Position numbers and translations under genes: made by a program. A stretch of DNA of 44,803 nt, taken from the NCBI GenBank assembly GCA_015055735.1, contig SVHP01000006.1, positions 1 to 44,803 of the forward strand. Direction: 5' to 3'. This DNA is from Clostridiales bacterium (GTDB taxonomy: Bacteria; Bacillota; Clostridia; Christensenellales; Borkfalkiaceae). Shown piece after piece: positions 33,015 through 35,933 of this stretch. Within the stretch, counting starts at the first letter, position 1; each line of letters starts with the position of its first letter. The notes under the pieces are model-generated. The model was given only the letters and a program-made list of their open reading frames with translations. It ran no database searches and was not told the origin of the DNA.

Positions 33015-33773
33015 TTACATTTTTTCTAACAGCATTTTATCGGCAACTAGCGCAATAAATTCGCCGTTCGTCGGTTTTTCTGCGCCGATATACGCGCGCA
33101 CGCCTAAAATAGAGTTGATACTCTCTATTCTACCCCTATTCCAAGCAACCTCTATGGCGTGCCGAATAGCACGCTCGACCTTAGATGCGCTAGTTTGATA
33201 TTTTTCGCCTATCAGTGGGTAGAGTTTTTTGGTAATGTTGTTGATTATCTCGGGATTGTTGACAGCCATGATAACCCCTTCTCTTAAAAACGAATAGCCC
33301 TTAATATGCGGTGGTATTCCAACGTTGATAAAAATTCTACTTACCTTTTCTTCAAGCGTCATTTTGTGAATACTCTCGCTAACTTCTTTAGCAGTCAACG
33401 GAGAACTTTCGCCAAAACTGTCTAGCCGTTCGATAAGAAGATCAAAGTTAACCGGTTTTGCAAGGTAATAGTCAGCCCCACTAGCGCTACACTTAGAAAT
33501 TATTTCTTCGCTAATTAGAGAACTTAGCACCACGATTTTAGTGTTTAGGTTTAACGCCTTAACTTTTGCAATAACACTTAAACCGTCGTACCCAGCAATG
33601 ACCAATTCGGTAATTAACACGTCGGGCTTTTTATCCTCGATCATAAATATCGCAGATATCCCGTCGACTGCCATACCACAAACTTCGTAATCTTTAGAAT
33701 TTTCAAACATTTTCGCTAGTTCTTCATTTTGCTCTTTTGTCGCTTGTAGTAAAAACACAGTCTTTTTGTTCAT
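33015..33773 (-). CDS. spo0A: Spo0A homologue with degenerate receiver domain
   Basis: 252 residues, the usual Spo0A length. The C-terminal DNA-binding domain (about 140-252) is intact: IPPHIKGYSFLREGV, KVERAIRHAIEVAWNRGR and KPTNGEFIALVADK match Spo0A closely. The N-terminal receiver is altered. Positions 10-11, normally Asp-Asp, are Gln-Ala (FLLQATKEQ). Position 56, normally the phosphorylated Asp, is Glu (DVLITELVIAGYDGL). Ser84 and Lys106 remain. Phosphorelay control in the normal way looks impossible. Spo0A-box-like sites lie upstream. Start ATG with AGGAGAATT. It may be the only Spo0A or a paralogue; the window cannot tell. The usual neighbour spoIVB is absent. Confidence 0.9.
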   Translation of the reverse strand: MNKKTVFLLQATKEQNEELAKMFENSKDYEVCGMAVDGISAIFMIEDKKPDVLITELVIAGYDGLSVIAKVKALNLNTKIVVLSSLISEEIISKCSASGADYYLAKPVNFDLLIERLDSFGESSPLTAKEVSESIHKMTLEEKVSRIFINVGIPPHIKGYSFLREGVIMAVNNPEIINNITKKLYPLIGEKYQTSASKVERAIRHAIEVAWNRGRIESINSILGVRAYIGAEKPTNGEFIALVADKMLLEKM

Positions 33774-33847: not shown

Positions 33848-33977
33848 TTTTGTACAAAATTCGTCTTAATTTTGTACAAAAATATTTTCGCTAGTGTTTT
33901 ACTAGCGATTTTCGACATTTTTCAAAACTGATTTTTAATATTTTGTCGATTTTTAGTGAATTTTGTACAAAATTCAC
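33848..33977. promoter_or_regulatory. Three TTTTGTACAAAA palindromes upstream of spo0A
   Basis: Exact copies at 33848-33859, 33870-33881 and 33961-33972. The first two are 22 bp apart (two helix turns). The third is the centre of a 22-bp perfect palindrome (GTGAA before, TTCAC after). Likely operators of an unknown regulator. A stem CGCTAGT/ACTAGCG at 33889-33907 lies between copies two and three. Confidence 0.6.
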
Positions 33978-34073: not shown

Positions 34074-35933
34074 TTATTTTGAAAAATATTTATAAGCAGA
34101 AGTATATAATGCTTTTACGTTGTTATTTATCATTTCGTCGATAGAATCTCTATCTTCGGCATTTTTGAAAGTTTCAAAAGCCGATTTGTTTTCTTCGTAT
34201 TCGTCCTTGAAGCCTTCTGCTTGTTCTTTTGAGTGGCAATATTGAATACCGTCTAATTTCATATATAATTTAACTATTTCGATTGCCTTATTGTACTTGC
34301 CGATAAGCGCTGAAACGTCTTCAGAAACTAACTTTTTAACGTCTTCGTCTAAAGCGTTATATTCGGTTTCTGCTTGGCTTAAAGCAGTCTTAAAGTCTTG
34401 GTCTTCGTCAGTTCCAGTTAATCCACCTTCAGGAAGTTTGCCGTTTAGAGCGTTGATTTTTGCAGTTACGATGCTTGCCTTATCAGCGTCGCTAATTTGA
34501 GCAAGTAGACCTGCGCTTCCTTCCAAGTATAAGATTGTATCGTCCTCTTCGTCAGCCACTACTTTAGCGCCTAAATCCATATATTTAATATAACTTGCGC
34601 CGATAGCAGTGTTATCGCAATAGAAAATTTTATTATCTTTTATTTCTGGGTTAAACCAAGTGGTTGCAACAACGTCTTCAGAAACTCTTACTGCCTTACC
34701 AAAGTCTTCGTCGCCAGCATTTACTGATACTCTAGCAATTTGATTTGCAGTGTTGTAGTAGTAAACGAAATCGCCTTCTTTGAAGAGAAGAGTTCCGATA
34801 GAATCTTTTGCCATGATAGGCTCTTTAATTATACCGTCTTTTTCAGTTAAAGTGGTTTTGTAAAGCTTGGTGTCGCCAAGAACGTAAACTTCGTCTAAAT
34901 CTTCAATGATATTAGTTTTTGCAACGTAAGTATCGTTTACGATTTCAGTCTTTGTAGCGTTAGCAAAACCTAAAAGGTCAGCAACCTTAACTGCGTAAGT
35001 TTTTGAAAGGTTAGTTGCAAGGGTTTCTTTATAGAATAAATACTCGTCGTTAACTAAAGTAATAGCAAAAGTTTTGTCGTCAATTCTAACGTCGCCTTCG
35101 CCTTGACCCTTACCGTCAGCAACAAGGGTAATTTGCTTTTCGCCAGCCTTGATTGCGTAAATGCTGTTATAGTTAGCAGTAGGTCTTGTGTAAGTTGGGT
35201 TCTTTTCAGCCAATTCTTGGTCGTACTTATCGGTATAAACGGTAGCAGATAGCACTGCGATAATGCCGTTTGAACCGTCAGCATCTAAGAACACGTACTT
35301 ATCGAGCGAATAATAGTTTTCTTGTTCGCCGTCAGTCTTGATAACTTCGTAAGCTTTGTTGTCGCCCGTGTCGTAGCACATAATTGCGCTGTTTTCAGTA
35401 TCGTAATAATAAATGCAAACCGCGCCGTTGCCCTTAACTATTCTATATTCAATACCGATATTGTCAACGGTAAAGAAAGTATCCGTTTGACCACTTCCGT
35501 CAAGCTTAGTTCTAGCGAAAACCAACTCGTCGCTAGCGATTTCGCCTTGAGAGTTCTTTTCGGTGCTTGGCGTACCGTAGTAAACGTACTCACCGTCGAT
35601 GAATAAACCTGCGCTAGAGTTAGAAGCGACGAAAAGTTTAGGAACGACGATTTCGGTCTTAGAAAGGTTAGACTTTTCAGCAACTAAAAGCGCGCCCTTA
35701 ACAGGAGTGCCTAAAGTGTTGTCGCTATTAGAGTCAGCCATACCGTTGATAAAGTAAATGTACTTTTCAGTTTCAGCGATAAAGCCACCGTTTTCCACTA
35801 AGCTACCAGCTTTAGAAGGAGCAAGTGAAATGGTTGAGCCAGACCAGTTGTTGTTAGAACAAGCGAGAAGGCTTGAACATAGCATGCAAATAACTAGCAT
35901 TGTGCAAATAAGTTTGGTTAAAATCTTTTTCAT
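34074..35933 (-). CDS. Lipoprotein with beta-propeller-like repeats (DUF5050-like)
   Basis: 619 residues. A signal peptide with lipobox SLLAC sets the lipidated Cys at 25, so it is anchored outside the cell membrane. Residues 40-460 hold repeated beta strands with aromatic pairs (YIYFING, YVYYGTP, VCIYYYD, FVYYYNTANQIARVSV, KIFYCDN), typical of DUF5050-type propeller proteins. The last 150 residues are helical and charged. The ligand is unknown. It is a single gene with a terminator, upstream of spo0A but separated from it. No enzyme motif seen. Confidence 0.8.
   Translation of the reverse strand: MKKILTKLICTMLVICMLCSSLLACSNNNWSGSTISLAPSKAGSLVENGGFIAETEKYIYFINGMADSNSDNTLGTPVKGALLVAEKSNLSKTEIVVPKLFVASNSSAGLFIDGEYVYYGTPSTEKNSQGEIASDELVFARTKLDGSGQTDTFFTVDNIGIEYRIVKGNGAVCIYYYDTENSAIMCYDTGDNKAYEVIKTDGEQENYYSLDKYVFLDADGSNGIIAVLSATVYTDKYDQELAEKNPTYTRPTANYNSIYAIKAGEKQITLVADGKGQGEGDVRIDDKTFAITLVNDEYLFYKETLATNLSKTYAVKVADLLGFANATKTEIVNDTYVAKTNIIEDLDEVYVLGDTKLYKTTLTEKDGIIKEPIMAKDSIGTLLFKEGDFVYYYNTANQIARVSVNAGDEDFGKAVRVSEDVVATTWFNPEIKDNKIFYCDNTAIGASYIKYMDLGAKVVADEEDDTILYLEGSAGLLAQISDADKASIVTAKINALNGKLPEGGLTGTDEDQDFKTALSQAETEYNALDEDVKKLVSEDVSALIGKYNKAIEIVKLYMKLDGIQYCHSKEQAEGFKDEYEENKSAFETFKNAEDRDSIDEMINNNVKALYTSAYKYFSK

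Follow-up and report, generated by a model that had tools for sequence, protein, structure and literature searches.

An incomplete phosphorylation site in the Spo0A of every member read of a clostridial family: a probable pseudo-receiver at the entry to sporulation

In endospore formers, phosphorylation of Spo0A is described as the general gate that leads into sporulation (PMC11210211). The window, by which we mean the whole stretch of 44,803 nucleotides analyzed here, carries a spo0A gene in which the residue that should accept the phosphoryl group is replaced. The locus therefore raises the question of how such a Spo0A is switched, and whether sporulation is entered in another way where it is the only Spo0A.

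The spo0A gene of the window

The gene and its two domains lie on the minus strand of the window:

33015..33773, minus strand: spo0A, encoding a pseudo-receiver (Gln10, Ala11, and Glu56; Ser84 and Lys106 kept) and an intact Spo0A_C domain (HMMER, NCBIfam, and fold model)
33423..33734, minus strand: receiver domain match PF00072, modeled as a (beta-alpha)5 receiver (Pfam scan, AlphaFold2, and Foldseek)
33036..33344, minus strand: Spo0A_C DNA-binding domain (125.8 bits in the profile search of the genome and 123.9 bits for the protein, versus a cut-off of 25)

The encoded protein of 252 aa passed the whole-protein model TIGR02875 spore_0_A with 228 bits (cut-off, 200) and the Response_reg model PF00072 with 56.2 bits (cut-off, 30.2). 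From the letters alone, it had been read as a Spo0A homologue with Gln-Ala at positions 10-11, Glu at position 56, and a well-conserved DNA-binding domain, and all of this was confirmed at the stated coordinates; that reading had given no strand. In the HMMER alignment to solved Spo0A receivers, Asp10, Asp11, and Asp56 were replaced by Gln10 (codon CAA), Ala11 (GCG), and Glu56 (GAA), the gene being read on the minus strand. The Spo0A_C domain scored far above its cut-off of 25 and shared 53% identity with 1fc3 when the structures were aligned. Ser84 and Lys106, which correspond to Thr86 and Lys108 of Bacillus subtilis when counted on the HMMER alignment, were retained. Three of the five active-site residues were gone, leaving neither a phosphorylatable Asp56 nor the acidic pair at 10-11. 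A pseudo-receiver, or ALR, is defined by the absence of one or more of these five residues (PMC12632262).

The window genome (1.52 Mb, 67 contigs, 76% complete) gave one Spo0A_C match in the profile search. Exactly one match was obtained in 43 of the 44 genus genomes and none in the remaining one, which was 74% complete; at a completeness of at least 90%, a match was present in 18 of 18. A second Spo0A was found neither in the window genome, at its 76% completeness, nor in any of the 43 matching genomes of the genus, and the window copy thus stands as the sole copy found. A canonical Spo0A elsewhere, accompanied by decay of the window copy, had been named as the outcome that would overturn the sequence-only reading; what was found was a single copy under purifying selection (see below). 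All family genomes analyzed were drafts.

Active site and receiver fold across the lineage

When relatives were aligned at positions 10, 11, and 56, the loss proved to be lineage-wide and residue 56 itself proved to be variable. For the genus, 42 of 43 loci were fetched (all except G021), and two of them were cut short, L009 by a stop and L021 by a contig end, leaving 40 readable sequences. The other genera of the family were represented by 57 sequences: 56 came from as many of the 156 additional genomes that gave a match, and the last, L034, owes its place in the family solely to the tree. This set covered all of the 15 additional matching genera except g4 and consisted partly of best scorers and partly of sequences picked per genus. 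At least one of the five active-site residues was missing in all 40 readable genus sequences and in all 57 sequences from the rest of the family, giving a family total of 0 of 97 sequences with all five. All five were present in 47 of 68 sequences from the rest of the order and in 65 of 84 from the class outside the order. Judged in this strict way, the site was incomplete in 21 of 68 and 19 of 84 of these, respectively, with Asp56 still present in most. Asp56 itself was present in 5 of 40 genus sequences, 11 of 57 in the other genera, 60 of 68 in the order, and 80 of 84 in the class.

Several sequences were dropped from these counts: L032 and L033 as duplicates of L025 and L117, L120 and L134 as second copies in G073 and G094, L090 and L170 of the order because their sites were unreadable, and three unreadable class loci. 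Six further order sequences stand outside the counts, four with all five residues (L171, L173, L175, and L395) and two incomplete (L394 and L401). The order and class sets contain second copies, weak paralogues, and one place twice (L037 = L143).

Within the genus (n = 40), residue 56 was Glu in 27 sequences, Gly in 8, and Asp in 5, and in the other genera of the family it was Gly, Ser, Asp, Asn, Glu, or Ala. Residue 10 was Gln in 37 of 40 and acidic in none. Residue 11 was Asp in 29 and acidic in 31 of the 40. The earlier description of the protein as having no acidic pocket therefore holds for the window copy and does not carry over to the genus, where an acidic residue 11 is common although an acidic residue 10 was not seen. 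The minimum number of changes inside the genus was at least 10 at position 56, at least 9 at position 11, and 3 at position 10. L101 (G007), a tree neighbor of the window Spo0A, has Asp56 together with Gly11. A read error at codon 56, which the earlier reading had raised against itself, was ruled out by the recurrence of Glu56 in 27 of the 40 genus sequences and by the incomplete site in all of them.

In a tree of 112 Spo0A sequences with the active-site columns removed, the family formed one clade (SH-aLRT, 100) in which all 45 sequences had a broken site, and 12 changes were needed over the whole tree; this is a quick tree from one short protein and not a species tree. The simplest reading of these sequences is a single loss at the base of the family, with further losses elsewhere.

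Two observations were made outside the family. L370 (G436, family f38 of the class) is a single Spo0A with Glu56 and Asp10-His11, showing that loss recurs there. In family f21 of the order (L162, L168, L170, and L177), Spo0A_C was intact, and the N-terminal domain was under the receiver cut-off in one of the four and was not recognized as a receiver in the other three. A single Spo0A_C match was obtained in 7 of the 10 f21 genomes. This family represents a second and more extreme receiver loss.

The structure prediction that had been proposed for the receiver returned a normal receiver fold. In AlphaFold2 modeling of the window protein plus L032-L037, a (beta-alpha)5 receiver was obtained with block pLDDT values of 77-94 up to residue 120, and positions 10-11, 56, 84, and 106 sat at the ends of strands 1, 3, 4, and 5, respectively. 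The pTM of 0.51 makes the mutual arrangement of the two domains unreliable. Among the Foldseek matches were the Spo0A receiver 1qmp (TMt, 0.90-0.91) and two DNA-binding domains of Spo0A, 1fc3 and 1lq1.

The receiver is under purifying selection. Its dN/dS ratio was 0.07-0.16 in those of the 25 nearest pairs with finite dS; across 60 pairs with a dS of <2, the median was 0.227 for the receiver and 0.054 for the DNA-binding domain, both obtained by a simple counting method with dS often near saturation. The switch-coupling residues Ser/Thr84, Phe/Tyr103, and Lys106 were each present in 40 of 40 genus sequences, and Thr12 was present in 36 of 40. The conservation of positions 84, 103, and 106 argues for a regulated switch rather than an always-on protein. 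Because these residues are conserved, Spo0A is likely still to be a switch and not locked on.

Histidine kinases and promoter boxes

In pathogenic and solventogenic clostridia, no classical phosphorelay has been identified; their Spo0A retains an aspartate that is critical, and the favored model has orphan kinases phosphorylate it directly (PMC11210211). The Spo0A studied here is like that of Clostridioides difficile and other clostridia with orphan kinases in that no classical phosphorelay is identified, but it differs from them in having lost the acceptor and in that no orphan kinase was seen. Across ten genomes of the genus, 71 matches to PF02518 and 35 to PF00072 were obtained. Twenty-three of the PF02518 matches were recognized histidine kinases, and every one of them had a receiver gene different from spo0A no more than 2.5 kb away. 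The sizes of the remaining 48, most of which were named by size only, fit GyrB/ParE, HtpG, MutL, and SpoIIAB, with the exception of matches of 502, 845, and 645 aa, and none of these three (the last one read directly) was a classical kinase. The 35 receivers were accounted for by 10 Spo0A proteins, 23 paired receivers, and 2 receivers beside glnA. No orphan kinase was seen in these ten draft genomes with the single Pfam model PF02518, by which a divergent kinase could be missed; an AgrC-like kinase in G033 was barely detected (4.6e-4).

G014, a genome that is 95% complete and carries Glu56, had zero histidine kinases recognizable by PF02518. Its six matches were GyrB, a GyrB/ParE paralogue, HtpG, MutL, an MzaB-like ATPase, and SpoIIAB. 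This kinase-less genome retains spoIIE, spoIIAB-sigF, and spoIVA. An orphan kinase driving Spo0A was thus looked for and not found with PF02518 in the ten genomes.

Some minor observations concern the proteins met in this search. The two receivers beside glnA are the only unpaired receivers besides Spo0A in the ten genomes. The one in G014 (L294:2007-2585) is an ANTAR protein with a weak receiver, and the one in G033 (L300:1279-1556) is a similar receiver cut by the contig end, its type being judged from its place. The MzaB-like ATPase of G014 (L293:333-1817) scored 286.6 bits, under the cut-off of 850, and is possibly part of an anti-phage system.

Upstream of spo0A, the following short elements were located by motif search:

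33911..33917, minus strand: 0A box TGTCGAA
34008..34014, minus strand: 0A box TGTCGAA
33984..33990, minus strand: third, weak 0A-like box, reading TTCGTCA along the gene, with 15 copies of this word in the window, which may be a chance match
33848..33859, no strand assigned: palindrome TTTTGTACAAAA, copy 1
33870..33881, no strand assigned: palindrome TTTTGTACAAAA, copy 2
33961..33972, no strand assigned: palindrome TTTTGTACAAAA, copy 3

TGTCGAA was found in the 250 bp preceding spo0A in 29 of 36 genus promoters, compared with 0.9 expected from 200 shuffles and a largest shuffled count of 4. In the other genera, it occurred in 39 of 53 promoters (2.4 expected; largest, 8). The whole window contained four copies versus 5.5 expected, and two of the four were those upstream of spo0A. 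Judging from these boxes, autoregulation of spo0A looks to be kept. In carrying a receiver with Spo0A_C and 0A boxes upstream of its gene, the protein is like Spo0A of B. subtilis and other Firmicutes; it is unlike the B. subtilis protein in that the acidic pair and the phospho-accepting Asp are replaced, no unpaired kinase was seen in the ten genomes, and spoIVB is not its neighbor in the window.

In B. subtilis, the spoIIE and spoIIAA promoters are under direct Spo0A control, and the 0A boxes at these promoters are also degenerate. In the relatives, TGNCGAA was not enriched upstream of spoIIE (2 of the 29 loci of L403-L432; 3.5 in shuffles) or upstream of spoIIAA (0 of the 13 loci of L263-L292; 1.8 in shuffles). 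Direct control of the two operons through consensus boxes is thus not visible in these promoters. Since consensus boxes are enriched neither there nor across the window, a direct link from Spo0A to the first sporulation genes lacks support. A TTGACA-like element seen by eye upstream of spoIIAA is a possible sigma-A -35 element.

The palindrome TTTTGTACAAAA had four copies in the window genome, three of which fell within 125 bp (33848-33972) upstream of spo0A. It was searched for in four genomes, picked for having TTGTACAA upstream of spo0A, and the copies upstream of spo0A numbered 3 of 4 in G000, 2 of 3 in G001, 1 of 2 in G017, and 1 of 4 in G020; four of the six remaining copies were inside open reading frames. 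TTTTGNNCAAAA preceded spo0A in 21 of 36 genus promoters versus 0.4 expected and was absent from the other 15, and hence it is not general. In nine cases in the genus, the palindrome center lay 9.5 bp from the center of a 0A box. The palindrome may be the operator of a different regulator, one that controls spo0A, or a tandem 0A box in degenerate form.

How Spo0A activity may be set

We consider it rather likely that the sole Spo0A found is a pseudo-receiver whose activity is set without His-Asp phosphotransfer, by its own level and perhaps by a partner or ligand. The site loss is old and occurs in every family member read, and the receiver, which keeps its fold together with Ser/Thr84, Phe/Tyr103, and Lys106, would be without the means to accept a phosphoryl group from a kinase or phosphorelay. 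The conserved DNA-binding domain and the enriched boxes suggest that Spo0A continues to bind 0A boxes and to regulate its own gene. Because phosphoryl acceptance appears to be lost while DNA binding and autoregulation appear to be kept, activity would be set without His-Asp phosphotransfer. The protein most likely dimerizes or binds cooperatively as made, its amount, driven by its own box-rich promoter, would set the sporulation threshold, and fine adjustment may come from a small molecule or a partner protein acting at the rebuilt pocket. In some species of the genus, weak phosphorylation may occur, with an acidic residue 11 in 31 of 40 sequences, Asp56 in 5 of 40, and an acidic residue 10 in none. 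The sequence-only reading had argued that if this were the only Spo0A, sporulation entry would be wired differently. The first half of that argument stood, with a sole copy found, a lineage-wide loss, and no orphan kinase seen; the rewiring itself is, for the same reasons, probable.

Like the aspartate-less receivers ChxR, HP1043, FrzS, RamR, and CmrT, this Spo0A has lost active-site residues and retained both the fold and the coupling residues. It differs from them in its Spo0A_C output, in being a developmental master regulator, and in showing this state in every family member read. Characterized pseudo-receivers are mostly orphan regulators, and a 2025 review calls the way in which they are switched a "mystery" (PMC12632262). 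A word count of that review gave no use of Spo0A, and in PMC4395418, Spo0A appears solely as a mutational example and in a reference. We found no description of a Spo0A without its phosphorylation site in the open-access literature. Pseudo-receivers (PMC12632262 and PMC4395418) were already known, and so was clostridial Spo0A that has its aspartate but no classical phosphorelay (PMC11210211).

A family with a chemically dead gate, but with spore genes and the DNA-binding domain kept, would show that the decision to sporulate is possible without a phosphorelay, and it offers a naturally replicated test of pseudo-receiver switching. The presence of spo0A is used as a sporulation marker (PMC11536998). 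The family is a warning that a spo0A gene detected in a metagenome need not come with the textbook control circuit. On a wider view, which we put forward tentatively, the whole family of gut bacteria (>200 genomes) might sporulate without His-Asp phosphotransfer. The phosphorelay would have been lost in the common ancestor, and the receiver would have been rebuilt around Gln10/Glu10, Ser84, and Lys106 as a ligand or partner sensor or as a concentration-gated switch on its own promoter. Family f21 of the order would have gone further, its receiver replaced by a domain recognizable barely or not at all.

Another post-translational signal may instead set the activity of Spo0A, and we regard this as a real if lesser possibility: Ser/Thr phosphorylation (e.g., of Ser84), a ligand in the pocket, or an allosteric partner, which might be the product of the gene next upstream.

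34074..35933, minus strand: upstream neighbor, a 619-aa protein with a lipoprotein-like start (by eye) and no match in the Pfam scan

Usually, spo0A adjoins spoIVB. The expectation that it would do so here was not borne out in the window, where this gene takes the upstream place. Of 42 genus loci, 27 had a homologue of it in that position, as did four additional family genomes. This favors a signal of this kind, as do the purifying selection on the receiver and the retention of Gln10, Thr12, Ser/Thr84, Phe/Tyr103, and Lys106 while the acceptor drifts. Against it, the candidate ligand, kinase, or partner is still hypothetical. Among the other 15 genus loci, five had too little DNA to tell and at least nine had a different or unrecognized neighbor; outside the genus, spo0A was preceded by an ABC-F gene or by still other genes. 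The 619-aa protein is a candidate partner of Spo0A, nothing more.

It is unlikely that Spo0A has left sporulation to run another programme, with the spore genes persisting as relics. Judged by their genes, the members of the family are putative spore formers, and these genes were largely in place. SpoIVA was matched in all 18 genus relatives examined (two of the matches in pieces; 22 genus genomes reach that completeness), and there was no match in the window genome, which is 76% complete. The SpoIIE model had a match in 42 of 44 genus genomes, 39 of them strong at about 1e-89 or better and all under the curated cut-off; two were partial, that of G034 resembled another protein, and no match was obtained in G007 (96% complete) or G028. 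SpoIIAB was recognized by motif in 15 of 30 loci of the sigF model, the motif having overlooked some, and SigF adjoined SpoIIAB in the spoIIAA-spoIIAB-sigF arrangement. In G014, SpoIIAB was confirmed by NCBIfam and SigF was under its cut-off. The sigF model matched in 44 of 44 genus genomes but also matches other sigma factors and hence says little. One spore morphogenesis gene lies on the window contig itself:

28744..30258, minus strand: SipL-domain (SPOCS) protein (same contig, Pfam scan)

The gaps are what such a departure from sporulation would predict: SpoIIAB had no match in G033 (98% complete) or G016 (93% complete), where SigF was apparently absent too, and SpoIIE had none in G007. 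The missing enrichment of the consensus 0A box upstream of spoIIE and spoIIAA points the same way, but as evidence the missing exact consensus is weak, the B. subtilis boxes there being degenerate too. SpoIVA in 18 of 18 relatives, strong SpoIIE matches in 39 of 44 genomes, and SigF beside SpoIIAB all speak against relics, which would be unlikely to persist in genomes of 0.8-2.1 Mb. Despite the missing SpoIIAB, G033 and G016 have SpoIIE, SpoIVA, and a SigG-like match; despite the missing SpoIIE, G007 has SpoIIAB, SigF, and SpoIVA.

The sequence-only reading noted that Glu can mimic phospho-Asp. We give a somewhat lower chance still to the idea that Glu56 in this way holds Spo0A permanently active, leaving its synthesis as the sole point of control. 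In the genus, Glu occupies position 56 more often than any other residue (27 of 40), among aspartate-less receivers in general it is the most frequent replacement (26%; PMC4395418), and its possible pairing partners Lys106 and Ser/Thr84 are retained. Gly and Asp substitute for it with at least 10 changes within the genus, though, other genera have Gly, Ser, or Asn, and an Asp-to-Glu change alone is often insufficient, with Spo0A among the examples (PMC4395418). Since residue 56 varies in this way within the genus and the tree neighbor L101 (G007) has Asp56, mimicry cannot be the general mechanism and is unsupported as an explanation of the locus.

Finally, a decaying pseudogene or an assembly error, with a canonical Spo0A missed in an incomplete genome, is very improbable and already contradicted: the window genome is 76% complete and one genus copy carries an in-frame stop, but the active site is incomplete in 40 of 40 genus sequences, no second match occurs in 43 genus genomes, a match is present in 18 of 18 at a completeness of at least 90%, and the receiver is under purifying selection. 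The stop in that copy (L009, from G006) falls between an otherwise intact receiver, with His10, Asp11, and Gly56, and the DNA-binding domain, and it may be an error or a natural split.
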